Shown here piece after piece: positions 2,330-51,292 of a stretch of 64,000 bases of DNA (position 1 is its first letter; each line of letters opens with the position of its first letter). The notes under the pieces are model-generated. The model was not told the origin of the DNA. It made no database searches and saw only the letters and a list, made by a program, of their open reading frames with translations. This DNA comes from Deltaproteobacteria bacterium. Lineage in GTDB: Bacteria > Desulfobacterota > Desulfobacteria > Desulfobacterales > C00003060. The position numbers were made by a program, and so were the translations under genes. The DNA is taken from contig QMMN01000009.1 in the NCBI GenBank assembly GCA_003647275.1, positions 1-64,000 on the forward strand, in the 5' to 3' direction.

Positions 2330-2365
2330 CACTCAAAAGCATTTCAAGGGGCATCCCCAAATCAG

Positions 2366-5502: not shown

Positions 5503-5509
5503 TTCACTC

Positions 5510-32874: not shown

Positions 32875-33251
32875 TTCCCCTTGACTCGTCCTTCATATTT
32901 TGTGGGGCATTTGACCAACAGCTCTCGGGCTGCAAAGACCTGCTTTTTTGGCTCATATTGACCTATCGCAACGATCTTGGTCACATCATCAAGGTTTGCA
33001 GGCCTTGGGCCATCATATTGCACGACCATTTCATCACCGCTATCTTCTCGCAGGGTAAAAAACAAGCTGTTGCTTTTCAAATCATACCTTTTACTACCCT
33101 TAACCACAATGCCTGCAACCTGCACGGGGCACTTGCTCACCTTGGCCTCACTGACACTTACATAACTGGTTAAGGTCGATTTAAAAGAATACATGGCCAT
33201 GACCATGGCCAAGACAATAATGATGGCGCCAATAATGTAGGACTTCTTCAT
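32871..33251 (-). CDS. ccmE: Haem chaperone CcmE, Cys-type variant
   Basis: A 126-residue periplasmic haem carrier with an N-terminal anchor (IIGAIIIVLAMVMAMY). The usual haem-binding HxxxY motif is replaced by CPTKY at 115-119, so haem would be bound through C115 with Y119 as ligand. This CxxxY form is known from Desulfovibrio and archaea, where CcmH is often absent. It overlaps both neighbours (ccmD and ccmF) by four bases. Confidence 0.93.
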   Translation of the reverse strand: MKKSYIIGAIIIVLAMVMAMYSFKSTLTSYVSVSEAKVSKCPVQVAGIVVKGSKRYDLKSNSLFFTLREDSGDEMVVQYDGPRPANLDDVTKIVAIGQYEPKKQVFAARELLVKCPTKYEGRVKGK

Positions 33252-33376
33252 CTATCCTTATCCGTGGACTCCTGTTCCAATTTCTTGATCCGTCGGTCCA
33301 AAACGAACAGATAAAAGGCAATGCCAAACCATATAATCAGATTAACGCCCGTGACAAAACCTAAACCTTCTTTCAT
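33248..33376 (-). CDS. ccmD: Small membrane protein CcmD
   Basis: A 42-residue frame too short for most callers: MKEGLGFVTGVNLIIWFGIA then one membrane segment and a charged coiled tail (DRRIKKLEQE). Position between ccmC and ccmE, size and topology all fit CcmD, which helps release haem-loaded CcmE from the ABC complex. It overlaps ccmE by ATGA. Confidence 0.85.
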   Translation of the reverse strand: MKEGLGFVTGVNLIIWFGIAFYLFVLDRRIKKLEQESTDKDR

Positions 33377-33442
33377 GTCTCTTCTCCTTCGGCATTTCCG
33401 CAAAAAACGCCATCTGCGGCGTTGCTCTGCATCCCTGCCCTG

Positions 33443-34123
33443 TTAGATAAAATCCCCAAAACGGGGTTCCTTCAAACCTTCCAATCTTAATATTCTCATT
33501 TTTAATCGAAGCATCCAGACAAACAATCCTGTGTAGGCAAGTAATGAACCTAAAAACACCTTTAACGTTTTCGGGTCCATGCCGGGCTGAGTGGGATTCA
33601 TGGTGTTTTCAGGGTGGAGTGATGCCGTGATCCGCGGTACAACAAAGATTAAAAACGGTACCGTTGTGAAGGCCAAAATTGAATACACTGCGGCAAACAC
33701 ACGCTTTCGTTCCGGATCAGGGACTGCTGATCGGAGGGCAAAATAGGCCCCATAGATCATAAGGAGTATGACAATAGAAGTCTCCCGTGGATCCCAATTC
33801 CAGAATGAACCCCAGGTCGCTTTGGCAAATATAGAGCCGGTCACCGTGGCAAGAACACAGAATAAAAACCCAAGCTCCGCGGCCGATTGGGCCAAGTAGT
33901 CCGCCTTGAGGTTGCGTTTGGCCAGATAGGTGGCGCTTGCGATCATGGATACCAAAAAAGAGAGTGTGGCGACCCATGCCTGGGGGACATGAAAAAACAA
34001 GATGCGGGATGTCTCGCCAGGGAACCCAACGGCTGCTTCTGTATACAAAAAAGCGGCCACGATGATAACAGCCATCCATATGCTCAACATGGCTTTAAGA
34101 ATCATAGCCTGACGGACCCTCAC
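33443..34123 (-). CDS. ccmC: Haem-handling membrane protein CcmC
   Basis: A 226-residue inner-membrane protein with six hydrophobic segments. The WWD motif is at 104-116 (WGSFWNWDPRETS), and the flanking histidines are in FFHVPQAW and SLHPEN. CcmC loads haem onto CcmE. It overlaps the end of ccmB by four bases; 66 bases separate it from ccmD. Confidence 0.95.
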   Translation of the reverse strand: MRVRQAMILKAMLSIWMAVIIVAAFLYTEAAVGFPGETSRILFFHVPQAWVATLSFLVSMIASATYLAKRNLKADYLAQSAAELGFLFCVLATVTGSIFAKATWGSFWNWDPRETSIVILLMIYGAYFALRSAVPDPERKRVFAAVYSILAFTTVPFLIFVVPRITASLHPENTMNPTQPGMDPKTLKVFLGSLLAYTGLFVWMLRLKMRILRLEGLKEPRFGDFI

Positions 34124-34833
34124 TCTTCCCAGACCAGTGGAAATAAGAATAATGACACAACCATCATGATCATCACATAGGCAACAGCGATTTTAACCTC
34201 AGCCCACCCTGCTGTGCCCATACCGATGGCAGCCCTTTCACATCCCTTGATAGCCGTAATCATCAGGGGCAAAAGGAGCGGAAAAGACAGGGCTGAAAAT
34301 AGTGCGCCGCGGGCGCTGGCCTGGGCTATCATGGCTGCCACGATGGTGGTACCTGCACCTAAACCAAAGCCGCCACTGATGATCATAGCCGCAAAAAAGC
34401 CAGGATATTCTATCTCGTATTTCATCAACAGGATAAACGACGGTACGATAATTAACTCTAACGCCCCCAAAAGGGTTAAGTTGAAAAACAGTTTTCCCAA
34501 AAATACGGCCTGTGGGCGGGCAGAGAGCCTCAAGGCATCCATGGTCCCGGCTTCTTCTTCTTTGACAAAGGAGCGAGAAAGACCGGACAGTGCGGAAAAG
34601 ACCAGGATAATCCATAATAGCACTGCGTACAAGAAGGGCTTTTCAGACGCCTCGATGCGGAAAGAGCCTATTGAAAAGCTCACAGCCACAAGGGTGGTTA
34701 CAGCGAACATCAGGATGGCATTGACCGCATAGCGTGTTCTGAACTCAATGCGTAGATCACGAAGCCAGATTGCAATCGCTTCACTTAGATAGGTTGATGA
34801 CCCTGTCTGCGTAGTCCACCTCCCGCCTTTCAT
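34120..34833 (-). CDS. ccmB: ABC transporter permease CcmB
   Basis: A 237-residue membrane protein with six segments and the CcmB hallmark SGLSRSFVKEEEAGTMDALR. It forms the release complex with CcmA, CcmC and CcmD. The only ATG giving the full first segment lies 53 bases inside ccmA, with no clear ribosome site, so the true start may be different or depend on coupling. Confidence 0.93.
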   Translation of the reverse strand: MKGGRWTTQTGSSTYLSEAIAIWLRDLRIEFRTRYAVNAILMFAVTTLVAVSFSIGSFRIEASEKPFLYAVLLWIILVFSALSGLSRSFVKEEEAGTMDALRLSARPQAVFLGKLFFNLTLLGALELIIVPSFILLMKYEIEYPGFFAAMIISGGFGLGAGTTIVAAMIAQASARGALFSALSFPLLLPLMITAIKGCERAAIGMGTAGWAEVKIAVAYVMIMMVVSLFLFPLVWEE

Positions 34834-35398
34834 TGGATGCGATCACCGCCATGCCAAACTGCCGCTGATCTGAAATAATATCCTCTACAATTTTCATTCC
34901 TTTGCTGTCAAGATTGCATCCAGGTTCATCTAACAATAATAGCGGTGGATTATGGAGAATCGCCTGAACAAGTTTCAAGCGCTGCTTCATGCCTGAAGAG
35001 TAATTCCTGCACATTTTTTCGGCCTGCTCGCTTAACCCAATGCGCTCCATGATATTGAGACAGTTTCTCCGATCATAGGCGATGCCCCGGACCCTACAAA
35101 AAAATTCCATATTCTCAAGGGCCGTCAACTCTTCATACAAAGATAAAGCCGGCGCTGCCATACCAATAAACTGTCGCCTCGATTCTTTTGGGATGGGCGC
35201 ATTTTTGCAAAACATTTCAACCCGACCGCATGAAGGCCTAACAAGGCCGGCAATAATACGCAGCAGGGTGCTCTTGCCAGAGCCGTTCCACCCAATAATA
35301 GCCAAGACCTCTCCCGGGTTCAACCGAAAGGAGAGGTCCTTGAACAGGAGTGTTGAGGAATAGTATTTGGTTAGGTTGGTAACACTTAATGAATACAT
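34781..35398 (-). CDS. ccmA: ABC transporter ATPase CcmA
   Basis: A 205-residue ATPase, first gene of the ccmABCDEF operon. Walker A is GWNGSGKST (36-44), signature YSSGMKQRL and Walker B LLLLDEPG. It powers release of haem-loaded CcmE from CcmC. The operon is divergent from the cytochrome cluster, with 140 bp between the two first genes that must hold both promoters. Confidence 0.94.
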   Translation of the reverse strand: MYSLSVTNLTKYYSSTLLFKDLSFRLNPGEVLAIIGWNGSGKSTLLRIIAGLVRPSCGRVEMFCKNAPIPKESRRQFIGMAAPALSLYEELTALENMEFFCRVRGIAYDRRNCLNIMERIGLSEQAEKMCRNYSSGMKQRLKLVQAILHNPPLLLLDEPGCNLDSKGMKIVEDIISDQRQFGMAVIASNERREVDYADRVINLSK

Positions 35399-35538: not shown

Positions 35539-37104
35539 ATGACTAAGATTTTTAATTATAGCAAAATATATATTGTAAGTCTATCTGTCATTCTCATGAT
35601 TTTGGCCTACCCATGGAGCTGTGTCCAGTGCCTTTTTGCCGAACAAAGACTTGATAGCCCCGATGAATCTGTGCCCGGTGCCTACCCCGAGCAGACCGAC
35701 CCAGGTGATAGCGCGGATAAATTCGTGTTGAATAAGATTAGCTGCGTTTATATTATCCGGGAGGATTATGATGGGTTAGGGTTATCTTATCCGTCTAGAT
35801 TGTTTGTCGATCCTGTAAAAAAGGAAATCTATATCACCGATTCTGGACGCAGCAGAATATTGGTCTATACACACGACTATTATCCCCTCATTACCATTGG
35901 CAAATCAGATGGCGTTGAAGTCCCCGTGGGCTTGGCCGTTGATCCGAAAGGATACCTTTTTGTTGCCCAGTCGCCATCCCGGAAACATCAAAGGGGCAGG
36001 ATATCGGTGCTTAATCCTTGTTTAAGGTGGAAAAGGGATATTTTTTTTGACGGTTTTGAAGGCGCAGAGAAATTTCACCCAAACAATATTGCCATTAACG
36101 ACGAAGGACGTCTTTATGTAACCGGCATCGGCTTTCGAGGCGTGGTGGTTTTGAATAGAGAAGGAACATTTTCCCATCTTTTAACCCCCACCGACAAACT
36201 CGGAAAAGGGGAAGAGGAAAGGGCTACAATATGCGACGTGGATATAGACGACTCAGGACGAATATACCTTTTAAGCGAAGATATGGGGCGCATTTATGTG
36301 TATGACCGGCAAGAGCGTTTTCTGTTTAAGTTTGGGCAAAAGGGAGGAAGTTCCGGAAAACTGAGCCGCCCCCGGGGGCTGGCTGTGGACAGCCGCACCA
36401 AACGGATTTATGTCATCGACTACATGCGCCATACCGCTTCTGCTTATTCAGATAAGGGGCATTTTTTGTTCGAGTTCGGGGGGTTCGGCTGGGCAAAGGG
36501 ATGGTTTCAGTATCCCAATGATATCGGGGTAGACACAATGGGAAACGTGCTGATAGCAGATACCTTTAATAACAGGGTGCAGGTGCTTGGCATTTCGACG
36601 TCCAAGCTCGATACTCAGCCAAAACCGGATGTCATGGTAGAGATAGGACCTTTGGCTTCAAAAAAAGAGCGACAAAGACAAGAGGGATTAGAGGGTGTGA
36701 CTGACGAGACCGAATCCAAAGATAGGCCTGCTTTTGAGGAGACACAAGAACTCGAAAGCAAGAAATCAATAAAAGAGATAAAGAAGTTCGTCTATTCATG
36801 GAGAGCGGCATGGCAAGCGCAGGAGATTGAAAGATATATATCACATTATGATGAGGAATTTTCAAGTGGTGACATGGACCTGCACAAGTGGTCAAAGTAT
36901 AAAGAAAGGTTATTTAGGACGAAAAAAATAAAAAATATTGTGATTGAGGACATGAAGATCACGCAATCAAAAGATCTTGTTATTGTATGTTTTTTACAAA
37001 GATACGTATCTGATAAGTACACGGACATTGGGAAGAAATATCTGTATTTAAAAAGGCGGGGGAATCGCTGGAAAATCATCCAGGAAAAATGGGTTTCGCA
37101 ATAA
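35539..37104 (+). CDS. Secreted NHL-repeat beta-propeller with C-terminal Cds6-like domain
   Basis: A 521-residue envelope protein. A hydrophobic start (IYIVSLSVILMILAYPWSC) is probably a signal peptide or anchor. Residues about 70-375 hold six NHL-type blades (LAVDPKGYLFVAQ, IAINDEGRLYVTG, LAVDSRTKRIYVIDYMR, IGVDTMGNVLIADTFNNRVQV). A charged linker leads to an NTF2-like domain (FVYSWRAAWQAQEIERYISH, to the end), as in Cds6 C-terminal domains. The TTG at 35479 is an alternative start. First gene of the cytochrome cluster; it overlaps the next by 16 bases. Confidence 0.8.
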   Translation: MTKIFNYSKIYIVSLSVILMILAYPWSCVQCLFAEQRLDSPDESVPGAYPEQTDPGDSADKFVLNKISCVYIIREDYDGLGLSYPSRLFVDPVKKEIYITDSGRSRILVYTHDYYPLITIGKSDGVEVPVGLAVDPKGYLFVAQSPSRKHQRGRISVLNPCLRWKRDIFFDGFEGAEKFHPNNIAINDEGRLYVTGIGFRGVVVLNREGTFSHLLTPTDKLGKGEEERATICDVDIDDSGRIYLLSEDMGRIYVYDRQERFLFKFGQKGGSSGKLSRPRGLAVDSRTKRIYVIDYMRHTASAYSDKGHFLFEFGGFGWAKGWFQYPNDIGVDTMGNVLIADTFNNRVQVLGISTSKLDTQPKPDVMVEIGPLASKKERQRQEGLEGVTDETESKDRPAFEETQELESKKSIKEIKKFVYSWRAAWQAQEIERYISHYDEEFSSGDMDLHKWSKYKERLFRTKKIKNIVIEDMKITQSKDLVIVCFLQRYVSDKYTDIGKKYLYLKRRGNRWKIIQEKWVSQ

Positions 37105-38501
37105 AAAATCTTTTCCGACTGATTGTGGCCGTATTGCTCGCAATATGCGTGCCTTCATGTGTGTTTGGACCGCATCCCAAACACTTACAGTCTACTGAGC
37201 AGGGCCAGATCTTTCTCTACCTCTCCTGTCCTGTGAAACCCACGTTTGATATCAGCTTCTCTATCTCCGGCATGAGCTTTATGAACAAGGACGGAGCATG
37301 GATCGATGTGGCGCTGGAGCGGTCTGTCGATTCTGAAGAGGTTTCAGAAAGGCAGATTAAATTGTCCGAGTTTTATCTCCCTGCCGGAAAGTATAAACGG
37401 ATTAAGTGGACTTTTTCTGAGGCAAAGGTGAAGAAGGACAACAAAAGCTTTACCTTGGCCCTAGCCCAGCCCCGGGGAGAGTATTCTGTGGAGTTCGAGT
37501 TCTCTGTTTTAGGCCGTGAAAGCCTGTGTCTCTTTGCCGACTGGGATCCAGAACAATCTGTTTTCGAAAAATATCTGTTTAGGCCGGCGCTGACGATTCG
37601 GAAACAGGGTATAGAAATTACAAACACCTTAATCTATACAACAAATTCTGGCTCTGACTGCGTTACGATTATAGACAGGCAACAGGATATGGTCGTGGCA
37701 ACCGTTGCAGTAGGCACAGCACCCCTTGGTATTGTGGCAAGCACAGATGGGCGCAAGGTCTATGTCGCTAATTCCGGTTCAAACACGATTTCTGTTATTG
37801 ATACGGCGACAAACAGGGTGGTCAACACGATCACCAATTTTGGTTACAGCCCTGCTGAGCTGGCCCTGTCCCCAGATGACCAAACCCTTTACGCAACCAA
37901 CCCCGATTCAGACAGTGTCTCTGTTATAGACACTGTCTCCTGTATGGTAACTGACAGAATACCTGTGGGGGATCACCCTACATGTATCCTTGTCGATCAA
38001 GACAGGCGCAAGGTCTATGTAACAAATACAGCGGCACATACCATATCCGTCATTGATATGTATACACAATCTGTGGAAAATACGATCTCAGTTGGCCTGA
38101 ATCCTGTTGGGATGGTTATCCACGAAGATACGTTATATGTGGCCAATTCGGGTTCAGACAATATCTATGCAATCGAGATTCCTTCCTATACAGTCACAAA
38201 GACGATTTCTGTTGGGCAAAAGCCTTCGAGGCTCCTATCTGGTCTGCGAGGGCACATTTACGTATCCAATGCAAACAGTAACGAAATTTCTTTTGTTTAC
38301 CCGGCCATGGGCCTGGTGACCAGAAGCATATCCACAGGTAACCTTCCTTTAGAGATGGCTATTGACGAGTGGAGAAGAAAACTTTATGTCGTAAATTCAA
38401 TGTCAGAGGATGTATCTATTATAGACGTTCCAACATACAACATCAAAGGTATGATTCAGGTTGGAAGGAATCCCCACGGCATTGTCTTGATTCAAGAATA
38501 A
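37089..38501 (+). CDS. YVTN seven-bladed beta-propeller lipoprotein
   Basis: A 470-residue lipoprotein with signal LIVAVLLAICVPSC (lipobox VPSC). Residues 30-170 are a separate beta-rich domain. From about 180 there are seven YVTN-type repeats, each like VYVANSGSNTISVIDT, making one full propeller. Such propellers act as protein-binding or redox-partner scaffolds at the cell surface. It starts 16 bases inside the previous gene, and a 49-bp gap precedes the barrel gene. Confidence 0.88.
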   Translation: MGFAIKNLFRLIVAVLLAICVPSCVFGPHPKHLQSTEQGQIFLYLSCPVKPTFDISFSISGMSFMNKDGAWIDVALERSVDSEEVSERQIKLSEFYLPAGKYKRIKWTFSEAKVKKDNKSFTLALAQPRGEYSVEFEFSVLGRESLCLFADWDPEQSVFEKYLFRPALTIRKQGIEITNTLIYTTNSGSDCVTIIDRQQDMVVATVAVGTAPLGIVASTDGRKVYVANSGSNTISVIDTATNRVVNTITNFGYSPAELALSPDDQTLYATNPDSDSVSVIDTVSCMVTDRIPVGDHPTCILVDQDRRKVYVTNTAAHTISVIDMYTQSVENTISVGLNPVGMVIHEDTLYVANSGSDNIYAIEIPSYTVTKTISVGQKPSRLLSGLRGHIYVSNANSNEISFVYPAMGLVTRSISTGNLPLEMAIDEWRRKLYVVNSMSEDVSIIDVPTYNIKGMIQVGRNPHGIVLIQE

Positions 38502-38550
38502 TGGGAAAAACGAATAGCTGTCAATTCACCCTGACCACTGATGATTTACC

Positions 38551-40734
38551 ATGAACATAGAGTCTTTGACCACGGAAAGCGCCCTGTTTGCCCTCCCCTC
38601 CATCTGTTCGCGCGTTTGTGTCTTGGTGGTTATGGTTTTGATCCTAACACTGGGTTCCTTTCGGGACGCTTATGCCAGAGGCGATATACGGGGTTCGGCC
38701 AACCTTTCTTATAGGTCCACCGAAATAAAAACGGCCCAAGGAAAGAAAAGCTCCTGGAGTCTTAACCAGCTGTACAACATTGGGCTTTCTAAAGCGTTTA
38801 CACCCAAAGTCAACTTTACCGCTGATCTCGGCATCAATATCAGTGAAACAGATGATACCAAAACCACCCGCCTCTATCCGGATATGAGGCTAAGCCTGTC
38901 AAATGAATATTTTAATGCGAATGCCGGTTATCGGTTGACCGAAAAAGGCCTGGATATCTTGACCATGGTCTCAGATGAAGAGCGGTTTACCACCGAATCC
39001 TGGAATACCAATTTTTCCACAAAGTCCGAGAAATACCCTAGGGTCCGACTCCGTTACAATCAAGACAAAAGTTATGACCACCTGTCAGTTCATGAGACAA
39101 ACACCAAAACGGACAGATTTGCGGGAAGGGCTGATTATGCCTATCGGTTTTTAAACCTTTACTACCAGTATACCAACAAAATTTCAGATGATTATGTTGT
39201 AGATAAAACCCAGGAGACCAATACCCATGAGGGGAGAATGAGTTTCAATAAGTCTTTTTGGCGCAAGAAGATCACCTCTTCTGGGAGCTATTCAATCAAC
39301 ACGAGCAACACAGAAACCACGGCAAGGGGTCAAGATATCACTGTTTCCGACAAAAAGACGGCTTCTGATGGACTGTATGCCAACAATCCCGCTGCTCCGC
39401 TTAACATACAACTTGATTCTCGTGCGTCGCTCATAGATGGGAACACGAGCACAAGCACGGGAATAAACATCGGCGCCAATACAAATCAGAACATCGGACT
39501 GGACCTGACTTTTTCGACTGAGATTGAAAAGATATATCTTTATACGACCACGCCAGATACCTTTTTTAACAAGAACGCCTACACATGGGCTGTTCATTAC
39601 AGCAGTGATAATCAAAACTGGACACAGTTAACCCCGGCAGCCAGCTTCGATTATAACACGAACCAAGAGCGGTTTGAGGTCTCGTTTACAAAGACATCGG
39701 CTCGGTATTTTAAGATGGTCAACACAGCAACCGATGGGAGAGACCTTGATGTGACAGAGATCGAGGCATATGGCTTTAAGACCCAGTCCGCTTATACCAC
39801 AACCGAGACCCAGAGGACGACTCAAAACATCCAAGCCAACCTCGGGTTCAGGCCTTTAGACTGGCTCTCTTTTACATACAATTTTTCGCAAGACCAGCAA
39901 AAGACCGAGGAGGCATCCGACTCAACCAAAACCAGGCAGTCAAGCCATAACATAAGCGGCCGCGCGGCAAAAGGGTTTCAGCTTCACAAGTATCTCAAGG
40001 TCCAGCCCGAGTATCACAGACAGCAGAAATATGAATATGACTCTGAAGCAGGGACAAAGCATAAATCGACAGATATATATCGAATACACCTTTTTTCGTC
40101 CCCCCTAAAGACACTTGATACCGACCTCTCTCTGAATCACAGGGTATTGAAAGAAGACTCTGAAACGCAGACAAGGACTTCATCTGCGCTGCTGCACATC
40201 GTGGCCAAGCTTCGTGAGGGCGCAAACCTGGACATAGACGGAGACATGACCCGTTCTGAAAATCTTGTAGGTGAAACCGTGTCAACCTCAAGATCTATTA
40301 ATTCAACCCTCCGCCTTGAGCTTACCAGTGCATTGACAACTGAAATAGAGTATAATATAAATTGGTCGGAAACAGAAGCGCCAACCGGGGGTACAACCGG
40401 GCGTCGTTCCGATACACAAACAACCATCTACTGGCGGCCTTCACACGAATTGTATTTCAGGGGATCCTACCGTATCGGCCGGGATGAAGAGTCGGGGGAG
40501 GAAACCTCTCAGCATAGCTATCAGATAAACTGGCTGATGACCAAAAAGGTACAGCTCAGAATGGATTATACCATAGACAGGAGTGGGACGATCATGACAA
40601 GCTATTCGTCTGACCTTTCATGGAATTTAAGCCAGATGATGTCGCTTCGGTTCGGATATGCCTGGAGTCGCCAGGAAGCAGATACGCAAACACAGACGCA
40701 AACCATAACCACAGATTTTTCGGCAAGGTTTTAA
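38551..40734 (+). CDS. Putative outer-membrane beta-barrel with discoidin-like insert
   Basis: A 727-residue protein with signal peptide ending AYARG. The mature chain is a run of amphipathic strands of alternating polar and aromatic residues (FTADLGINIS, LYYQYTNKISDDY, ELYFRGSYRIGRDEE, LRFGYAWSRQE) ending in ARF*, the terminal phenylalanine typical of outer-membrane proteins. An insert near residues 270-410 (TWAVHYSSDNQNWTQLTP, RYFKMVNTATDGRDLDVTEI) resembles an F5/8 type C (discoidin) domain and would be an exposed loop. Position among cytochromes suggests a porin sheath for a haem conduit; that is inference. Confidence 0.75.
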   Translation: MNIESLTTESALFALPSICSRVCVLVVMVLILTLGSFRDAYARGDIRGSANLSYRSTEIKTAQGKKSSWSLNQLYNIGLSKAFTPKVNFTADLGINISETDDTKTTRLYPDMRLSLSNEYFNANAGYRLTEKGLDILTMVSDEERFTTESWNTNFSTKSEKYPRVRLRYNQDKSYDHLSVHETNTKTDRFAGRADYAYRFLNLYYQYTNKISDDYVVDKTQETNTHEGRMSFNKSFWRKKITSSGSYSINTSNTETTARGQDITVSDKKTASDGLYANNPAAPLNIQLDSRASLIDGNTSTSTGINIGANTNQNIGLDLTFSTEIEKIYLYTTTPDTFFNKNAYTWAVHYSSDNQNWTQLTPAASFDYNTNQERFEVSFTKTSARYFKMVNTATDGRDLDVTEIEAYGFKTQSAYTTTETQRTTQNIQANLGFRPLDWLSFTYNFSQDQQKTEEASDSTKTRQSSHNISGRAAKGFQLHKYLKVQPEYHRQQKYEYDSEAGTKHKSTDIYRIHLFSSPLKTLDTDLSLNHRVLKEDSETQTRTSSALLHIVAKLREGANLDIDGDMTRSENLVGETVSTSRSINSTLRLELTSALTTEIEYNINWSETEAPTGGTTGRRSDTQTTIYWRPSHELYFRGSYRIGRDEESGEETSQHSYQINWLMTKKVQLRMDYTIDRSGTIMTSYSSDLSWNLSQMMSLRFGYAWSRQEADTQTQTQTITTDFSARF

Positions 40735-40838
40735 ATGGTGGGACAATGATCGGATTGAACTCAGCCATAACACACAAGGCAGAGCGCAGAACGCAAAGCG
40801 CAAAGCGCAAAGGAAACCCATTGTTACCGGTATGCGCC

Positions 40839-41414
40839 ATGCGCTATACGCCATGCGTGTATGTTCTCCTTGCCCTTTTGGCTTTGCCTTTCTTTTCAGC
40901 ATGCAGTTCCCCTATGAGCTATATCCATCCCACAGCGGACTTTACATATATTAAGACCGTGGCCATTGTCCCTTTTAATAATCTGACACAGGAAAAAGGG
41001 GCAGCGGGCAAGGTGATGAATGTCGTGGCTACAGAGGTGTTGAGGCGGGGTGTATTTGACGTTGTTGAATTTGGAGAGGTTACCAAAGTGCTGAAGGAGG
41101 AGGGATTCAGGGGCGGGGGTTCAATCAGCAAGCATGTTGCCGAAAGAGCTGGCAAGCGTTTGAATGTCCAGGCCTTTATCTTGGGCTCGGTTGAAGAGTA
41201 CGGTGTCTCACGCACGGGCGGAAGCTCATATCCGGAAGTCTCTGTCTCCTTAAAGTTGATAGATGCAAAATCTTATAAGATTCTATGGGAAGCGACCCAC
41301 AGCGTAAAAGGGACGACTGTCCTGGATCGACTCTTTGGTATCAGTAAAAAAAGCACAAGTGATCTTGCAAAAGAGCTGGTTGCCAAGATGTTTGATACGC
41401 TGTTTGGAACGTAA
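40839..41414 (+). CDS. CsgG/LpoB-like lipoprotein (1 of 3)
   Basis: A 191-residue lipoprotein with signal VLLALLALPFFSAC. The mature part opens TVAIVPFNNLTQEKGAAGKV and continues VEFGEVTKVLKEEGF and ILGSVEEYGVS, the fold of CsgG/LpoB/GNA1162-type proteins that sit under the outer membrane. The frame is open 31 codons upstream to an ATG at 40746, but that part is the tandem tract gcgcaaagcgcaaag (40780-40812), so I start at 40839. The ribosome site is weak. Confidence 0.7.
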   Translation: MRYTPCVYVLLALLALPFFSACSSPMSYIHPTADFTYIKTVAIVPFNNLTQEKGAAGKVMNVVATEVLRRGVFDVVEFGEVTKVLKEEGFRGGGSISKHVAERAGKRLNVQAFILGSVEEYGVSRTGGSSYPEVSVSLKLIDAKSYKILWEATHSVKGTTVLDRLFGISKKSTSDLAKELVAKMFDTLFGT

Positions 41415-41489
41415 TATCAAAATTATTTTTGCACAGACATAGGTGCGAACAATTTTCAAAAACAGATCCGGAGATAAAAGATTGGTTTA

Positions 41490-42989
41490 TTGAAAAGACA
41501 TATACCCGTCATAACCCTTTTGATCCTGTCTCTTTTTTTATCCACTCATGTCCATGGAGAAGAGAAGCCAATCAAGATAAAAACAATTGCGGTCATGCCC
41601 TTTGAAAACTTCACCATTGGAGATGATTCCTTTGATTTTACCCGTCTGATCACCGATCGTCTCATTGACAAATTCAGCGTAATCCCTCAAGACATTTTAG
41701 AAGGATTCCTGGTCAAAAAAAGGGTCCGCCGAACAGGTTTGTTAAACCGGGTAACGATCCGGGAAATGGGAATGGCTTTGAACATAGATGCCTTGATGAC
41801 CGGCTCTGTGGATAGCCTATCGGGTGGTGAAAATCCCCGGGTGGCCCTGAGCGCCCAGATGATGCATTGTGTTGATTCTTCTATCATCTGGGCCAACGCC
41901 GTTTCATACACCGGGGAGGACTTTGCCACCATTCTGGGCATAGGAAAGATATATTCCCTGAAGAGGCTGGTAGACGTTGCCGTCACCGATCTTCTGAAAG
42001 GCTTACCTGCTAAGGTCGGTGCACATGAGTTGGTAAAACCGTTTGAGATTGTGCATGCGAGTTTCTTCCCCAAGGTATTAAAAGGTGGCCAGACAACCAC
42101 CGTCTCAATTGAAGTCAGTGAGATTACAGGAAAGCTTAAGGATCTTAAGGCCTTTGTCCTTGACACCCAGATTGGGCTTAGCACCAAGGACGGGCTATGG
42201 TACACCGGCATCTTAACGGCTCCGAGCATTGAAGGGGTATATCCCCTTAGGATCTACATGACCGACCAGAGCAACAGGCTTTTCAGTATGGATGGTGTGG
42301 CCCAACTGATCGTTGACAACACCCCGCCTGAGGTTACCCTTTCATCGGGACAAAAGGTTATATCACCCAATAAGGATGGCATAAAGGACAGTATCTTGTT
42401 CTTCCCGGAACTTTTAAATGCAGATACCTTAGAAAGCTGGCGGGTTGAGATTAGGGACGAGAGCGGAACAGTGGTCAGGTCAGAGGATGGCATCGGGGCG
42501 CTGCCAGGAGGCTTTATCTGGCGGGGTGAGGATAATACGTATAAGTCCGTTAGAGATGGAACTTATTTCTGCCAGTTGATTTTAGAGGATACAGCTGGTA
42601 ACAGGACCGTCTCGCCAAGAAAGACCATCGTGGTCGACGCCACAGCGCCTGAAGTAGAGCTAGTACTTGCCGGGGAAGATGATCAGGGGATCACCTTGGA
42701 GCTGAAAACCAAAGATATCAGCGAAATAGCCGATTGGGAATTAACCATCTATGATAGAAAGGGCATTCAGGTAGGAAAATTGGAAGGTAAAGGGGATATA
42801 CCCACGAGGCTAAGCTGTACGTTAAAAAGCCCAAACTCAGAAAAAAAGGGCTTTTTGGCCTATTCCCTGGCAGTAACCGACATTGCAGGAAACAGATTAG
42901 AAAGAGAAAAAGAACCTCTCGAGCCATCTAAACCAGAGGGGCCTGAACAGAAACCGCCTGAGAAAAAGATATGGATCGAGGATTTTTGA
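41490..42989 (+). CDS. CsgG-like domain plus FlgD/Ig-like repeats (2 of 3)
   Basis: A 499-residue secreted protein starting at TTG, with signal peptide VITLLILSLFLSTHVHG. The N-terminal 170 residues are a second CsgG/TolB-N-like domain (IAVMPFENFTIGDDSFDF, ALMTGSVDSL). Two or three Ig-like domains follow, one with SPNKDGIKDSI, the calcium-type loop of FlgD/gliding-associated repeats. A proline/glutamate tail ends the chain. It may assemble or anchor surface parts. The TTG start and distant ribosome site suggest low expression or a misplaced start. Confidence 0.7.
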   Translation: MKRHIPVITLLILSLFLSTHVHGEEKPIKIKTIAVMPFENFTIGDDSFDFTRLITDRLIDKFSVIPQDILEGFLVKKRVRRTGLLNRVTIREMGMALNIDALMTGSVDSLSGGENPRVALSAQMMHCVDSSIIWANAVSYTGEDFATILGIGKIYSLKRLVDVAVTDLLKGLPAKVGAHELVKPFEIVHASFFPKVLKGGQTTTVSIEVSEITGKLKDLKAFVLDTQIGLSTKDGLWYTGILTAPSIEGVYPLRIYMTDQSNRLFSMDGVAQLIVDNTPPEVTLSSGQKVISPNKDGIKDSILFFPELLNADTLESWRVEIRDESGTVVRSEDGIGALPGGFIWRGEDNTYKSVRDGTYFCQLILEDTAGNRTVSPRKTIVVDATAPEVELVLAGEDDQGITLELKTKDISEIADWELTIYDRKGIQVGKLEGKGDIPTRLSCTLKSPNSEKKGFLAYSLAVTDIAGNRLEREKEPLEPSKPEGPEQKPPEKKIWIEDF

Positions 42990-43001
42990 GATAAGGTTTC
43001 C

Positions 43002-43583
43002 ATGCTTATGCAAGGCCACCTTGTTTTTCTATTCATCAGCCTTTTATTGGCTGTGGGTCCTGGTTGCTGTCTGTCTTCGAGCCCAAATAGTTACCTGAGG
43101 AAGGGTATTGATAAATCAAACATCAAGAAGGTTGCTGTTATCTCTTTCCACAACAACACCCAGATTGCGGAAGCAAGTCACGTTGTAACCAAGGCATTTA
43201 TTGCCGGGCTGTTTGAAAGGAAACAGTTTAAAATAGAATTTCCAGGCAACGTCAAAAACCTTCTTGTTAGTGAGCGAGTTATTGTAAGGACAGGCCTTGA
43301 TCTTCAAACCATAAAATTGATGGCCAAAAGACTGGGCGTGGATGCCGTTATCTTAGGCGAGGTAGACGAATACGTAGGCGTGGATGACAGAAAAAAGTCT
43401 GTCATTCCAGTAGTTTCCATTCGTTCAAGGATGGTGGATACCCGAACAGGCAAGATACTGTGGCTGGCCCAGCACAGGAAAACAGGTGATGAGTACATAA
43501 AAGTTCTCGATTTTGGAAAGGTCAGGTCGGTGGCTAGATTGGCCCGAAAGGTTGTCGGCGAAATGATTGAGACCATGCCGTGA
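43002..43583 (+). CDS. CsgG/LpoB-like lipoprotein (3 of 3)
   Basis: A 193-residue lipoprotein with signal LVFLFISLLLAVGPGC and lipobox GPGC. It carries the same fold as the other two (VAVISFHNNTQIAEASHVV, VDAVILGEVDEYVGVDD, MVDTRTGKILWLAQH). It starts 12 bases after the preceding stop. Three related proteins in a row suggest repeated duplication within this cluster. Confidence 0.7.
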   Translation: MLMQGHLVFLFISLLLAVGPGCCLSSSPNSYLRKGIDKSNIKKVAVISFHNNTQIAEASHVVTKAFIAGLFERKQFKIEFPGNVKNLLVSERVIVRTGLDLQTIKLMAKRLGVDAVILGEVDEYVGVDDRKKSVIPVVSIRSRMVDTRTGKILWLAQHRKTGDEYIKVLDFGKVRSVARLARKVVGEMIETMP

Positions 43584-43674
43584 AAGCAGTAAAAGATCAG
43601 CAATATCTGCATTGGGGCGATTTGGGCAATAGACTGTGAATGCTAATATCCCTGCTAAATTGATAAGGGTCATC

Positions 43675-45123
43675 ATGAAAAAATCGTTCGTATTTGCTTT
43701 TTTGATACTTTTCTGGATGACCATTGCAGGCATAGATGTGCCTCATTGTGCTTCCGGCGATACCCTGGTCGTTGCTGAAGTCAATGGCGAGACCATAGAT
43801 GAAAGAGCCATTCAGGACAGAATCAGGGCCATTCACAGATATAGACCACCGATTCGGCCTGAAGGGGGAGCAGGCAACATCGAGATCTTAGACCTTGTTG
43901 AACAGATGATCGACGAGCGCCTTATGATCCAAGAAGCGTACAGGATGGAACTCGACCGGTCCGCTGATTTTGCAAAACAGATGGCATCCTACATCACGAG
44001 TCAATCCGTTGTTAGGTTAAAAAAAGAAGAGGTTCTCGATAAGATCAAAATAAGTGAGGAAGACCTGCTTGACTATTTCAAAAAACATTACGAGAAAGAG
44101 GGGCCGGCACCAGAGGGAGAATTTGAGAAAAGAAAAAAGGGCATCAGAAAAAAACTGAGGAAGGAAAAAGAAAAAGCGTTATCTGATCAGTTTATTTCAA
44201 AACTGAGACAGGAGGCTGATATCTGGATTGACAAGAAGCTCGTCGACCTGATTGATCCTGAAAAGGATTATGCCGGGAAAAAGTCAGTGATAGCACGCGT
44301 AAACGGCCAGCCAATCTCCCTTGATGATATGCTCCATGATATGAAACAGGCCTTTCAAAGGAGGTCCAGGTTCTTTCGTAGATTAAAAAGCGATGGCGAA
44401 CAAGAAAAGATGCTCAAGGGGCTAAAGCAACAAGTGCTCGATGCCCTGATACGCTATAAGTTGGTCGAGCAGGAGGCATTAAAGCGCAATTATGTTGCCG
44501 ACCCTGCGTTTATGGACATGGTTAAGAAGCGTAAAAACTGGCTTCTTATCAATGAATTTAAGGCAAAGATAATCTATCCTCTTGCTATTCCAACAAAAAA
44601 GGAATTGACAAAGTATTATAAAGAACATATAAATGACTTTAGAAAAAGCTATGAGGTCTGGTGCAGCGAGATGATCTTTCGGGCCAGGGAAGATGCTGAG
44701 AAGACCCTGAAAGAATTAAAACAGGGTGCGGACTTTGAGTTTTTAGCTGCACGGGTATCAGAGTCGACACCAAGGAGAGCGCGTATATGGGTTAATACGG
44801 AGTGGTTTTCTCCCCCGATCAGAAAGGTGCTAAATCGGCTGAAGGCCGGAGAGATAAGCGATGTCATTGCCGACGGCAGGCAATATAAGATCATAAAATT
44901 GAAGGGAAAACGAGGCGGGGAACCCGAAGAATTTTCCAATGTGGTCGGGAGGTTGAAACAAATTGTAGCACAGGAGAAATTTGATGCCGTGCTTTCCGAT
45001 TATTTGGCAAGGCTGCGTAAAGAATCCCGTATCAAGATTAATGAAAAGGCCCTGAAAATGCTAGAGAAAAAATATACGACTGGCGCACCAAGCCAAGTTG
45101 AAACCACAGATCCCACAGACTAG
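43675..45123 (+). CDS. SurA-type periplasmic chaperone/parvulin isomerase
   Basis: A 482-residue secreted protein (signal VFAFLILFWMTIAGI). N-terminal SurA-like helices (VVAEVNGETIDERAIQDRI, IEILDLVEQMIDERLMIQEA) occur twice (again at IARVNGQPISLDDMLHD), followed by a PpiC/parvulin domain (CSEMIFRAREDAEKTLKEL, GEISDVIADGRQYKIIKL). It probably folds the barrel or cytochromes of this cluster. AAGGGTC precedes the ATG; the stop is 3 bases before the cytochrome gene. Confidence 0.85.
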   Translation: MKKSFVFAFLILFWMTIAGIDVPHCASGDTLVVAEVNGETIDERAIQDRIRAIHRYRPPIRPEGGAGNIEILDLVEQMIDERLMIQEAYRMELDRSADFAKQMASYITSQSVVRLKKEEVLDKIKISEEDLLDYFKKHYEKEGPAPEGEFEKRKKGIRKKLRKEKEKALSDQFISKLRQEADIWIDKKLVDLIDPEKDYAGKKSVIARVNGQPISLDDMLHDMKQAFQRRSRFFRRLKSDGEQEKMLKGLKQQVLDALIRYKLVEQEALKRNYVADPAFMDMVKKRKNWLLINEFKAKIIYPLAIPTKKELTKYYKEHINDFRKSYEVWCSEMIFRAREDAEKTLKELKQGADFEFLAARVSESTPRRARIWVNTEWFSPPIRKVLNRLKAGEISDVIADGRQYKIIKLKGKRGGEPEEFSNVVGRLKQIVAQEKFDAVLSDYLARLRKESRIKINEKALKMLEKKYTTGAPSQVETTDPTD

Positions 45124-45126
45124 TAT

Positions 45127-47076
45127 ATGAGATTCGCAAGATCAGCATCCTGTTTTCTATTACTCTTTGGAATCATCCTTATAGGCGTTACTTCTTGTGA
45201 GAAAAGGATACCCGGTCGTGTTATCAAAAAGAAGTGCATTGATTGTCATCAAAAGGAGGCTAAAGAATTTAAGGGGGCAAAGGTTGTCCACTCCCCTGTC
45301 TCCAAGGATGACTGTGAATCCTGCCACAGACCGCACGGCATCATCGGCGGCGTGTATTTAAGAAAGAGCAAAAAAGAGCTTTGCTATACCTGTCATAAGG
45401 ATAGTAAGGCCATGCTTAATAAAAAACATGTACATGCCCCGGTAAAGGATGGGAAGTGTATAGACTGCCACAACCCCCATTCGTCCATGGAAAAAAACCT
45501 GTTAAAAGGAAGCGGGAATGATCTTTGTTTTATCTGCCACAAAAAAGACGATTACAGCAGAAAGACGGAACATGCGCCTTTATCTGACAGGGGGTGTTTG
45601 GTTTGCCATGATGCCCATGGTTCTGATTATGAGAAATTTCTTTTTGATTCAATGGCGAATGTTTGCCGTAAATGTCACAACTTTAAAAAGTCTGACTTTA
45701 TCAATGGCCATTCTGGCTATCAGCCGGGGGGGGCTGCCTGTGTCTCGTGTCATACGCCCCACACTTCTTCTAACACCAAATTGCTTCGTGAATTCGTGCA
45801 TTCGCCCCTTGATCAAAACCAATGCAGGGCTTGCCACAACCTGCCTGAATCGGCCCAACCTTTAGAGGTCAAGGAAAAGGGCGCGGATCTCTGCTATGGT
45901 TGTCATGAAAAAAGCAAGTCGGCTTTCAGGAAGGCCCACATTCATCTGCCGGTGGAAAAAGGCGATTGCCTTTCATGCCATAGCCCCCACGCCACAGATC
46001 ATAAATATGTAACCGTGTTGCCTGACGGCAAGCTGTGCTATTCCTGCCACAAAGAGGCAGCAGAGTTCTTGAAGAAGTCGCACGTGCACAAACCGATACA
46101 AGACAACAATTGCACGGCCTGCCATAATCCCCATGCCTCAAATAACGAATTTGGGGTAAAAGCCGCGGGCAAATCACTTTGCTTTGGCTGTCATGAACAA
46201 AATGACTACACGCGCTCAAATGTTCATGACCCCGTCAAGAAAGGCGACTGTACGGCCTGCCATAATCCCCATGCGTCGAATAACAAATTTGAACTTCATC
46301 TGGTGGAAATCGAGCAGTGTTATAACTGCCATCAGAAAGAGAAGACGCTCTTTGATCGAGTCAATGTCCACACCCCTCTCAGGCTTGGAAGGTGTGTGGT
46401 TTGCCACAATCCTCACTCGATCGACCAGGACAAACTCTTGGTTCAACCAAGGAAAAAACTCTGCTTCACCTGTCATCAGGGGATGCTGGATGGCGTAAAG
46501 GGTGGCACCATCCACCCATCTTTTCAAAAGGGAGAATGCTCAACGTGCCACGACGATCACGCCAGTGACCATGATTTTCAATTGATCGAAACAGGGGGAG
46601 ACAATTGTTATCGATGTCATGCCAGCATCCAAACCTCCTCTGAAAGGAATCAATACAACCACGCTCCGCTCAAACAAGGAGAATGCACGGCCTGCCATAA
46701 TCCCCATGGGAGTAAGATAAAAGGGCAATTAAACAGACCCCTGGGGAGCCTGTGCCTGTCATGCCACTCGGATTTAGCGGCCCATATAGAAAAAGACAAA
46801 TATCAGCATACGCCAGCAAAGGAAGGAAGCTGCCTGCGGTGCCATACGCCCCACTATGCAAATATCGAGAGCTTGCTTTCAGATAAGGTGCCCCGTCTTT
46901 GCAAGGATTGTCATCATATTGAGACCCAGGCCATGGCGCGTGCCCACTATACAGTCGCCATACTGAACTCGGATTGTATCAGTTGTCATGAATCACACAC
47001 GGCGGAAAATAAAGGCTTGCTGCATAAAGTCATGCACCCCCCATTTAAAGACGGGAATTGCACGGCATGTCACTAA
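45127..47076 (+). CDS. 26-haem c-type cytochrome lipoprotein
   Basis: A 649-residue cytochrome with signal LLLFGIILIGVTSC (lipobox VTSC). I count 26 CxxCH motifs, from KKCIDCH near residue 37 to a last CTACH that forms the very end of the protein. Motifs recur in pairs about 30-40 residues apart with distal histidines (HSP, HAP, HTP, HPP) before each pair, a doublet module seen in doubled CxxCH (paired_CXXCH) families. Near-identical DNA words at 46114, 46252 and 46687 show internal duplication. Likely at the outer membrane as part of an electron conduit. Confidence 0.9.
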   Translation: MRFARSASCFLLLFGIILIGVTSCEKRIPGRVIKKKCIDCHQKEAKEFKGAKVVHSPVSKDDCESCHRPHGIIGGVYLRKSKKELCYTCHKDSKAMLNKKHVHAPVKDGKCIDCHNPHSSMEKNLLKGSGNDLCFICHKKDDYSRKTEHAPLSDRGCLVCHDAHGSDYEKFLFDSMANVCRKCHNFKKSDFINGHSGYQPGGAACVSCHTPHTSSNTKLLREFVHSPLDQNQCRACHNLPESAQPLEVKEKGADLCYGCHEKSKSAFRKAHIHLPVEKGDCLSCHSPHATDHKYVTVLPDGKLCYSCHKEAAEFLKKSHVHKPIQDNNCTACHNPHASNNEFGVKAAGKSLCFGCHEQNDYTRSNVHDPVKKGDCTACHNPHASNNKFELHLVEIEQCYNCHQKEKTLFDRVNVHTPLRLGRCVVCHNPHSIDQDKLLVQPRKKLCFTCHQGMLDGVKGGTIHPSFQKGECSTCHDDHASDHDFQLIETGGDNCYRCHASIQTSSERNQYNHAPLKQGECTACHNPHGSKIKGQLNRPLGSLCLSCHSDLAAHIEKDKYQHTPAKEGSCLRCHTPHYANIESLLSDKVPRLCKDCHHIETQAMARAHYTVAILNSDCISCHESHTAENKGLLHKVMHPPFKDGNCTACH

Positions 47077-47153
47077 GGATGGATCATTGTTCATTCGGCA
47101 TTGGTAATTTTTCGAGATGAGATACCCCCCGAGTCGATAGCTTAGGAACGACA

Positions 47154-48410
47154 ATGGCGATGGTTCGAAAAGGGTTTTTGACGTCTTTTTTTGTAATCTT
47201 TTCAGCGTTGGTGATCTGTGCTGCTGTTGCTGATCAGGCAGGGGCTCAAAATGCCAAGGCCAGCTTTAAAAAATGCCTAACCTGTCACCCTGATATTCAG
47301 CAGGATATGGCAGCAAAAGGGGCTCACGCGCCGTTTAGAAAATTTCAATGTTCACGCTGCCATAATCCCCATGCCTCAAATTATGAACATTTGGTAAAGG
47401 ATGAAATCGGCACGCTGTGCAAAAGCTGTCATAAAGACAAAAAGGGGGATCGTGGCAAAAAGTACACTCACCTCCCTGTTGAGGAAGGGGCGTGCTTGAA
47501 GTGCCACAACGCCCATTTATCAAAAAACCCCAAACTATTAGTGGCAAAGGGTGAGGATCTTTGCTTTGGCTGCCATGCTGAGAAAAAGATATTGTCAAAG
47601 AAAAACAGGCATGATCCTGTGAAAAAAGGCCATTGCTTGCGTTGTCACAGCCCCCACTCCTCTGATCAGGAGGCCCTGGTTAAAAAAGACCTGAAACAGA
47701 TATGCACCACGTGCCATTCAGTCAAGAATAAGAAAGCGAAAAACGCTCACCTTGATTATCCTGTGCAGGATACCAATTGCATGTCCTGCCATAACCCCCA
47801 TGGATCGAATCGCAGCTCTTTGATCAAGGAAACTTCCCATGAGCCCTTTGCCCAGAAGAAATGCACGACATGCCACAATGAGCAGGGATCAAAAAACCCC
47901 CTGGGGTTAAAGGGCAAGGGGGCTTCCATTTGTATTACCTGCCACGCATCAGCCCAGGAAGATTTCAAAAAGATAAACAGCCACGTGCACCAAGGTGTGT
48001 TTTGCGTGAGCTGCCACAGCCCCCATGCCTCAGATGAGGACCACCTTAAAAAGGCAAAAGAGGTAAAGGTATGCCTTTGTTGTCATGAGGACACCCAGGG
48101 ATGCATCAAAGACAAAAAGAATGAGCACAAACACCCCTTGGTGAAGGAAGGAAAATGTAGCCCGTGTCATCGTCCCCACGGGTCTAATTTCAGGCTCTTT
48201 TTTGGGGCCGATGAGTTCCGTGTATGCGCGGACTGTCACAAGAAGCATGTGAAGTTTACGCATCCCATAGGGAAAGAGGCCTCTGATCCAAGGTCAAAGC
48301 GAGATATTACTTGTATCACATGTCACAAGCTGATGGGCAGTCCTTATCAGTTTGCACTAAGATTTGACCGGAAAAAGCAATTGTGCATCCAATGCCACAA
48401 AGGGTACTGA
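47154..48410 (+). CDS. 16-haem secreted c-type cytochrome
   Basis: A 418-residue cytochrome with signal peptide FFVIFSALVICAAVADQAGA and no lipobox, so periplasmic or exported. I count 16 CxxCH motifs (first KKCLTCH, last LCIQCHKGY). It is built of the same paired modules as its neighbour (CSRCHNPHASNYEHL, CMSCHNPHGSNRSSL) and shares stretches of DNA with it. It may hand electrons to the 26-haem lipoprotein. It lies 77 bp downstream. Confidence 0.9.
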   Translation: MAMVRKGFLTSFFVIFSALVICAAVADQAGAQNAKASFKKCLTCHPDIQQDMAAKGAHAPFRKFQCSRCHNPHASNYEHLVKDEIGTLCKSCHKDKKGDRGKKYTHLPVEEGACLKCHNAHLSKNPKLLVAKGEDLCFGCHAEKKILSKKNRHDPVKKGHCLRCHSPHSSDQEALVKKDLKQICTTCHSVKNKKAKNAHLDYPVQDTNCMSCHNPHGSNRSSLIKETSHEPFAQKKCTTCHNEQGSKNPLGLKGKGASICITCHASAQEDFKKINSHVHQGVFCVSCHSPHASDEDHLKKAKEVKVCLCCHEDTQGCIKDKKNEHKHPLVKEGKCSPCHRPHGSNFRLFFGADEFRVCADCHKKHVKFTHPIGKEASDPRSKRDITCITCHKLMGSPYQFALRFDRKKQLCIQCHKGY

Positions 48411-48412
48411 GT

Positions 48413-48465
48413 GAACTGCAAAAGCGCTCGCTAACCCCGCAGCCGCCGAAGCTGACGCTAACTCT
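48413..48465 (+). repeat. Palindromic repeat family 1, copy D (partial)
   Basis: GAACTGCAAAAGCGCTCGCT, then AACCCCGCAG. The 27-bp core is missing; a divergent CCGCCGAAGCTGACG tract replaces it. It fills the gap between the second cytochrome and the NHL gene. Confidence 0.65.
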
Positions 48466-48471
48466 GGAGTG

Positions 48472-49383
48472 ATGATGTTTAGACGGTTCTATTTTTTTGT
48501 CATTGGGTTGGTTTTATTTCTCCTCATGCCGGCCAGTGGCTTTGGTAAGCAAGAAGGCCGCATAAAACACCTCTCTTCCATCACTGGCAACAAAGAGATC
48601 GGCTATCTCGGCCTGTTGGGTGGTGTCTTTTTTGACGAAAACAAGAACAGATTGTATGCAACCGATACAACCAATCATCGAATACTCGCCTTTGATGCTG
48701 ATTTTAAATATATTTCAGAATTCACCGGTGGTGGTGCCTTAGCCTTTCCAGCCAGTATCGTCAAAGATAGCAAAGGTACGTTTTTCGTGACAGAGCCCAC
48801 AGAGGGGCGGGTCCTGGTGATTGATATAGCCCGAAAATCCATAAAACCGATCGATTTTTCTGCCGTTCCCGAAGGGAACACCATATATCCGGGCCACATG
48901 GCAGTGGATTCGGCAGATCACTTATACATTGTGGATAAAGCGAACGCCAGGATTCTGGTCTTTGATTCAAATTTACAATTTGAAAGGCAGGTCCTGGTCA
49001 AAGAGGGCCGAGGCCTCAGGGATGTGAAGGTGGACACAGCAGGTCGTATTTATGCGCTGAGCACCCTGGATGGCTCGATTCGCGTTTATGACAACCAGGG
49101 AAATCTTCTTTTAAGATTTGGAAAAAGGGGATCCAATAAAGGCGAATTCGACTTTCCGGTGAGCCTTGCTATCGACCAAAGGGGTTTGATCTATGTGGTT
49201 GATCAACATAAAAACCAAGTTCTGGTCTTCAATAAAAAAGGGCAATTTCTTTTTGCCTTCTCACAGTTAGGCTGGAGAGAAGGGCGCCTGCATTTGCCTT
49301 CTTTTATTTACATCAACAGGTCCGGGCAGATCTTTGTTGTGGACCGAGAGAACGCCCGTATCAGTATCTTTGAACCGCAATAG
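48472..49383 (+). CDS. Secreted NHL-repeat beta-propeller
   Basis: A 303-residue protein with signal peptide VIGLVLFLLMPASGFG. The mature chain is six NHL blades (RLYATDTTNHRILAFD, LYIVDKANARILVFD, LIYVVDQHKNQVLVFN, IFVVDRENARISIFE), like the first gene of the cluster but without its C-terminal domain. GGAG precedes the ATG (48472; GTG at 48469 and ATG at 48475 are alternatives). It closes the cytochrome cluster. Confidence 0.85.
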   Translation: MMFRRFYFFVIGLVLFLLMPASGFGKQEGRIKHLSSITGNKEIGYLGLLGGVFFDENKNRLYATDTTNHRILAFDADFKYISEFTGGGALAFPASIVKDSKGTFFVTEPTEGRVLVIDIARKSIKPIDFSAVPEGNTIYPGHMAVDSADHLYIVDKANARILVFDSNLQFERQVLVKEGRGLRDVKVDTAGRIYALSTLDGSIRVYDNQGNLLLRFGKRGSNKGEFDFPVSLAIDQRGLIYVVDQHKNQVLVFNKKGQFLFAFSQLGWREGRLHLPSFIYINRSGQIFVVDRENARISIFEPQ

Positions 49384-49491: not shown

Positions 49492-50073
49492 CTATACAAT
49501 GGTCTTTCGCATGCCAAGCACATACCCGACACTGGAGACCATCACGTGCAGCACCAGGGTTAGTACAAGAGACCACAGGATCAGGTATGGGGAGGGTTTC
49601 ACAATAAGATAGATAAACACCCATGCGCCTATGGCCAAGTCGAGCTGATCAAAGAGGAAAAACGCCATACCAACAACCCGCTTCCCCCGCTTACCCGGGG
49701 AGATCCCGAGTTGACGCTTTAAAAAACTGTTGGGCAATTCGCCTGCTGTCACGCCAAGGCCAAGCAATAGTCCCAGCATACCCCCGTCTTTGCTGTAGTC
49801 CAATAACGGCAACCAGGAAGCAATAAGCCCATTACTCTGAATCCAGCCCTGAATCCGCGCTCCCAGTATACAAAAAGCCACATTGATCACGAGCCCTCTC
49901 CAGGTTTTGTGATCCCCAAAGATCCTTTTCCCCCTAAATCGCAGGCCAAGATCAAGTGGTCTCCTCAGCCACCGCAATCTGTTGTATTTGATGCACAGCC
50001 CCTGGGCAATGGCCACCATCAGGAGTGGCGACCCAAGAAACAGGATCTGGCAGGTCATCTTCAGCACGAACAA
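49492..50073 (-). CDS. CarS-like CDP-alcohol synthase family membrane protein
   Basis: A 193-residue inner-membrane protein with five or six hydrophobic segments. The motifs GLRFRGKRIFGDHKTWRG and GELPNSFLKRQLGISPG match the CDP-archaeol synthase (CarS, DUF46) family, which joins CTP to a lipid alcohol. In a bacterium the substrate is unlikely to be archaeol; a CDP-diacylglycerol-like or ether lipid is possible. It begins 3 bases after the radical SAM gene, so the two are cotranscribed. Confidence 0.75.
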   Translation of the reverse strand: MFVLKMTCQILFLGSPLLMVAIAQGLCIKYNRLRWLRRPLDLGLRFRGKRIFGDHKTWRGLVINVAFCILGARIQGWIQSNGLIASWLPLLDYSKDGGMLGLLLGLGVTAGELPNSFLKRQLGISPGKRGKRVVGMAFFLFDQLDLAIGAWVFIYLIVKPSPYLILWSLVLTLVLHVMVSSVGYVLGMRKTIV

Positions 50074-51237: not shown

Positions 51238-51292
51238 GACAGACACCCCCTTTTTTGTGATTAACACGATCTTACCTTGCCTCCCCAAAAAT

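Follow-up and report, generated by a model that had tools for sequence, protein, structure and literature searches.

In a 64,000-nucleotide stretch of a Deltaproteobacteria bacterium genome (contig QMMN01000009.1, positions 1 to 64,000; hereafter the window), ten open reading frames (ORFs) at 35539-49383, every one on the plus strand, encode two multihaem cytochromes together with beta-propellers, a predicted outer-membrane beta-barrel, PelC-like proteins and a SurA-type isomerase. The locus is already described and is not new: it is known from metal-reducing Geobacter, as osc, and from sulfate reducers that partner methane-eating archaea, as oet, and these are very probably two names, with two functions, for the same locus. 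Its identity, gene order and domain content, and the co-occurrence of this machine with OmcS-like cytochrome genes, are established here. We favor, with moderate confidence, the reading that it encodes an Osc/Oet-type outer-membrane complex that would both serve as the gate through which OmcS-like filaments are exported and connect them electrically. The ten genes are as follows.

35539..37104 (+): exported six-bladed NHL propeller with a C-terminal Cds6_C (NTF2-like) domain (Pfam NHL, 5e-20; Cds6_C, 5e-23).
37089..38501 (+): YVTN/YncE-type beta-propeller lipoprotein (TIGR02276, 4.8e-65; lipobox VPSC).
38551..40734 (+): predicted outer-membrane beta-barrel of 727 amino acids with an F5/8 type C insert at residues ~290-395 (amphipathicity; Pfam 4.5e-9 for the insert; co-occurrence).
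40839..41414 (+): PelC/LpoB/GNA1162-like lipoprotein, putative OscF equivalent (LpoB, 5e-7; GNA1162, 9e-7; PelC profile, 4e-10; lipobox FSAC).
41490..42989 (+): exported protein with an N-terminal PelC/LpoB-like domain (hhalign) and C-terminal Ig-like domains (CHU_C/FlgD_ig).
43002..43583 (+): probable lipoprotein, the third of the PelC/GNA1162-like set (GNA1162, 4e-5; hhalign against the 40839 family, 100%).
43675..45123 (+): SurA-type parvulin isomerase/chaperone, putative OscH equivalent (SurA_N_3, 8e-16; Rotamase_2, 3.5e-11).
45127..47076 (+): 26-haem lipoprotein cytochrome with MtrA/DmsE-type paired CXXCH motifs, putative OetB/OscI equivalent (TIGR03508, 9.6e-99; 6r2q_A, 2e-19; lipobox VTSC).
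47154..48410 (+): 16-haem periplasmic cytochrome, MtrA/DmsE-type, putative OetA/OscJ equivalent (16 CXXCH; 6r2q_A, 7e-17).
48469..49383 (+): exported NHL propeller, last gene of the cluster, at a position equivalent to GSU2493 (NHL, 2e-22).

An earlier note, made from the DNA letters, had described ten co-directed genes, among them a 26-haem and a 16-haem gene, two NHL propellers, a YVTN propeller lipoprotein and a SurA-type chaperone. These calls hold: all ten ORFs are present on the plus strand, 45127-47076 contains 26 CXXCH motifs and 47154-48410 contains 16, the Pfam domains agree, and lipoboxes were seen in the YVTN, 40839 and 26-haem proteins. No other ORF in the 64-kb window has at least two CXXCH motifs. 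The spacing of the motifs is regular in both cytochromes (23-29 residues), with Paired_CXXCH Pfam E-values of 3e-138 and 6e-82. The chain matched by both, 6r2q_A, we take to be MtrA from the Mtr complex (PDB 6R2Q); its database label, cystathionine beta-synthase, is probably a mislabel. Two starts differ from those of the ORFs. For the 40620 ORF the probable start is the ATG at 40839 (lipobox FSAC), so that it no longer overlaps the barrel gene, and the isomerase probably starts at 43675 and not at the ORF start, 43636.

To place the locus, clusters were located from homologues of the isomerase across the phylum, with many families represented. The earlier note had proposed looking for conserved synteny in Desulfobacterota, and the same order was found in about 20 clusters of the phylum: YVTN protein (displaced in some clusters), barrel, ring proteins, isomerase, 26-haem protein, 16-haem protein and NHL propeller, with few clusters in which the last does not follow the 16-haem gene. 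Homologues of the NHL-Cds6_C protein occupy the same position in relatives within the genus and lie elsewhere within the cluster in other orders. The haem counts are also constant, with exactly 26 motifs in 26 of 26 homologues of the 26-haem protein and 15-16 in those of the 16-haem protein. What the note had called scaffold and folding factors are indeed present, not as extras but as standard members of the locus whose order is conserved phylum-wide.

The note could match the set to no described conduit, and here it was mistaken. A core operon of a six-bladed propeller, 16- and 26-haem cytochromes and an isomerase was described in SEEP-SRB1 and Desulfofervidus by Skennerton 2017 (PMC5539420), and Murali 2023 named a conduit OetABI, made up of a porin and two cytochromes, one periplasmic and the other an outer lipoprotein, and stated that its filament cytochromes may be elsewhere in the genome (PMC10553843). 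Syntrophic sulfate reducers, the nearest parallel that the note named, are borne out. Two 2026 papers citing Shen 2025 (PMC12977616, PMC13194489) describe GSU2493-2501 as the osc (omcS-companion) operon, involved in folding and secretion of OmcS nanowires. Within it they set a nanowire secretion block of eight genes, GSU2500-GSU2493, in which GSU2495 is the 26-haem protein gene oscI and GSU2494 is oscJ. In the same papers, the roles proposed in Geobacter are folding for OscH, secretion for OscE/F/G and nanowire morphology for OscD. Genomes that we call Geobacter-like from their gene order have an OmcS-type hexahaem gene (sometimes with one gene between), YVTN, barrel, LpoB-like, CsgG-like, isomerase, 26-haem, 16-haem and NHL genes. 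With the YVTN protein taken as OscD and the barrel as OscE, this order would coincide fully with the eight-gene block. By order and size (~470 amino acids) the YVTN protein of the window is a probable OscD equivalent, and the barrel gene a probable equivalent of OetI and OscE; the correspondence with OetI (OEU57520.1) and GSU2493-2501 is drawn from order, size and haem counts. Of the marks of an Oet/Osc locus, adjacent 26- and 16-haem cytochromes, a SurA-type isomerase, a six-bladed propeller and the gene order are found here; a neighboring OmcS-type hexahaem gene, common in such loci but not required, is not.

Alternation of membrane-facing residues in the barrel family reached z=7.7 over shuffles, while the nine other families of the cluster ranged from -1.8 to +1.0, and the protein has about 24 amphipathic segments outside the insert. 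This pattern argues for a large transmembrane barrel. An AlphaFold model of the barrel, made from three sequences, had a predicted local distance difference test score (pLDDT) of 37.9, too low to inform on the fold. The barrel profile matched neither an MtrB chain in the PDB nor a solved PelB. Across a set of 297 genomes from the phylum, the barrel is present in 40 of the 43 that have the 26-haem protein and in 6 of the 254 that do not (Fisher p about 2e-39). Thus, conservation of the cytochromes without the barrel, which the note would have taken as refuting, is rare (3 of 43 genomes). In three members of the host's genus (G002, G007 and G011), the contigs bearing the cytochromes break off within the cluster, and no barrel was detected anywhere in the genome. 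Because the contigs end there, and because G009 has a barrel fragment and no YVTN match, fragmentation is the simplest reason for the missing barrels. On one contig of G002 (C99; L075/L076) the same cytochrome block is found inverted at both ends, probably a palindromic assembly artefact.

The "discoidin-like loop" of the earlier note does contain an F5/8 type C sequence, which is in fact a domain of ~105 residues and a feature of the family. Since Pfam found F5/8 C at E<0.01 in just 3 of the 17 barrels scanned, we argue for the insert from the alignment and the profile: it is retained across most of the barrel family alignment, and the family profile matches a CBM32 structure there.

Similarly, the three proteins that had been called CsgG/LpoB-like are real paralogues of each other (hhalign probability 99-100%), and among solved proteins PelC and GNA1162, not CsgG, come closest to them. 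PelC is a ring lipoprotein found beneath a barrel exporter. Profile searches placed PelC (4e-10) and GNA1162 nearest, and the CsgG domain was below the Pfam cut-off in the ring-type proteins, CsgG being matched by fold only, and weakly. For the 40839 protein, one of five models (pLDDT 75) gave PelC as the best Foldseek match (E 4e-9), followed by GNA1162, FlgT, TolB, LpoB and, weakly, CsgG. This protein combines a PelC-like fold with a lipobox; the ring itself is predicted. The 41490 protein aligns with the 40839 family at 99.6% over residues 25-172 (hhalign), and in the 43002 protein two adjacent cysteines (CC) stand at residues 22-23, a position plausible for a lipoprotein. Many other clusters likewise have three such paralogues, while five (L140, L141, L145, L146 and L147) have two.

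Filament cytochromes track the locus. An OmcS-like profile, which matches solved OmcS (6ef8) at 8e-23, detected genes in 34 of the 43 phylum genomes with the 26-haem protein and in 3 of the 254 without it; among 60 relatives the numbers were 9 of 12 and 0 of 48. The profile was partly seeded with host genes and applied at a strict cut-off, so that missed cases in these counts do not prove absence. The host has five OmcS-like cytochromes, two on contig C42, two on C33 and one on C70. These were gathered by family search and region retrieval, an inventory that may be incomplete. Two host loci with cytochromes, one of them the C70 locus just named, stand out:

C70 (L124), 663-5851: divergent island of two 12-haem proteins, an OmcS-like cytochrome and an eight-haem A6-type cytochrome.
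C22 (L125), 13357-14508: five-haem protein resembling those found between ring-protein genes inside clusters of other species.

The C70 island is a likely partner locus of the cluster, and relatives of the C22 protein appear to sit inside the cluster in other genomes. An additional A6-type cytochrome is encoded on host contig C8; a PDB search with the A6 type gave no match.

The host carries dsrA with a dsrB-like neighbor. A non-sulfate-respiring Desulfatiglandales population (PMC13343851) had been considered as the host and was dropped, as both genes are present. One relative, CR_Bin_073 (L009), whose barrel is 66% identical, has been placed in SEEP-SRB1c order C00003060 and comes from Costa Rica Margin sediment (PMC9723726). 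A second, Meg22_46_Bin_1 (L010), shares the Meg22_46 prefix with other bins that Murali reports from Guaymas Basin (PMC10553843), and judging by bin names L010 comes from sediment of that basin. The machine is placed in part of a marine sulfate-reducer genus with relatives at these sites. Within the order, the cluster is almost restricted to part of this genus and to G036, which stands apart from the genus in the 26-haem tree, on long branches. Horizontal acquisition of the cluster is likely, to judge from this pattern of sequences.

In the mechanism that we favor, cytochromes would be matured in the periplasm, with cytochrome c maturation (ccm) genes adjoining the cluster, and folded with the SurA-type isomerase. 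PelC-like ring proteins beneath the beta-barrel would form the export gate, and the exported cytochromes would polymerise outside as OmcS-like filaments. Electrons would pass between the periplasm and the filament base through two rods, the periplasmic one with 16 haems and the lipoprotein with 26, while the propellers may be scaffolds or regulators of shape. Export is favored because the isomerase, the PelC-like proteins and the propellers, which carry no haem and are conserved, resemble components for assembly and export, and because filament cytochromes track the locus. Since the host has dsrAB, electron uptake from an archaeal partner is plausible, the direction of flow being our inference and not something that sequence can give. 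A more elaborate version, which we regard as speculative and less likely than not, has the three PelC-like paralogues forming one mixed ring, or rings stacked on each other, under the discoidin-bearing barrel. Filaments would exit in the manner of the Pel exporter, the 42-haem rods would wire their base, and in this genus the machine would be kept apart from its substrates, perhaps serving several interchangeable OmcS-like filaments.

Several observations weigh against export of OmcS-like filaments. No filament cytochrome or OmcS-type hexahaem gene lies beside the window cluster, and two genomes of the genus (G002 and G007) carry the cytochromes with neither a barrel nor an OmcS-like gene detected. 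Co-occurrence within the genus may partly reflect ancestry, given the partly host-seeded profile. According to one of the citing papers, neither growth on anodes nor reduction of Fe(III) oxide requires OmcS (PMC13194489), and a further citing paper calls the secretion mechanism still speculative. The same genes could instead form a plain porin-cytochrome conduit, the OetABI reading proposed by Murali 2023 (PMC10553843), with a 16- or 26-haem MtrA-like rod inside the barrel as MtrA is in MtrB, and the isomerase and ring proteins just folding and placing parts. Both cytochromes match 6r2q_A and the MtrA/DmsE family, and the one with 26 haems is a lipoprotein that the barrel accompanies in nearly all genomes. 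The earlier note, which read the locus as an electron conduit, was right about an outer-membrane electron-transfer locus comprising a barrel and two cytochromes, one an outer lipoprotein and the other periplasmic; its reading is incomplete beside the folding and secretion roles in the Geobacter literature. A plain conduit does not account for an isomerase, a trio of PelC-like proteins and two or three propellers in conserved order, nor for the strong co-occurrence with OmcS-like genes, and no sequence relationship connects the barrel with MtrB; we therefore consider it unlikely, though still a serious competitor.

Instead of an OmcS-like filament, the complex might export or display some other product, such as the 12-haem pair, an A6-type cytochrome or a surface adhesin that acts through the discoidin-like insert. 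The host encodes two 12-haem proteins and A6-type cytochromes, genes of either type flank clusters in other genomes, and the insert could bind carbohydrate. However, most Geobacter-like genomes have OmcS-type hexahaem genes next to the cluster, and OmcS-like genes track the 26-haem gene phylum-wide, co-occurrence having been counted for the OmcS-like profile alone. Such a substrate appears very improbable to us.

Upstream of the cluster, on the opposite strand, is the maturation operon:

30637..35398 (-): divergent, complete ccmF-ccmE-ccmC-ccmB-ccmA cytochrome c maturation operon (Pfam).

Its linkage to the cluster was seen in this genus only (L009, L010, L071 and L072), and no ccm operon was found beside clusters of other orders. 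Contamination of the window contig was rejected, as several genomes of the genus keep the cluster in synteny with the ccm genes beside it. Downstream are a CarS-like (CDP-archaeol synthase family) protein, here in a bacterium (49492-50073, minus strand), a radical SAM gene beside it (50077-51288), and an ABC transporter set resembling a tungstate/molybdate-type importer (51463-54193, minus strand; ATPase, permease, PBP_like_2 binding protein), the ATPase gene of which also comes after the cluster in L009 and L071.

Synteny and co-occurrence tie the Oet and Osc literatures together, and the window locus can be compared with both. With the OetABI operon it shares the 26-haem lipoprotein, periplasmic 16-haem cytochrome, barrel, isomerase and propellers, with relatives in SEEP-SRB1-type sulfate reducers. 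It differs in that no OmcS/OmcX/Apc2a gene lies inside the cluster, the OmcS-like genes being elsewhere in the genome, and in that a ccm operon adjoins it; OetABI was described in sulfate reducers partnering anaerobic methanotrophic (ANME) archaea, whereas the present host is a candidate partner at most. The order from the YVTN propeller to the closing NHL propeller is that of Geobacter sulfurreducens osc, as deduced via Geobacter-like genomes, which have two PelC-like paralogues instead of three; here the adjoining hexahaem gene is absent and an extra NHL-Cds6_C gene stands in front. MtrCAB likewise combines MtrA-type paired-haem rods with a barrel, but in the window locus MtrC is missing, the barrel shares no sequence relationship with MtrB, the haems are far more numerous, and chaperone and ring proteins are present. 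In the PelBC exopolysaccharide exporter, solved in 2025 as PelC with its barrel, PelC-like lipoproteins also stand beside an outer-membrane barrel. The ring-protein family alone is shared, since the barrel has no match to solved PelB and the presumed substrate here is a cytochrome. A PelBC-like export gate, with a PelC-like ring under a barrel, is a testable model for the Osc/Oet machine.

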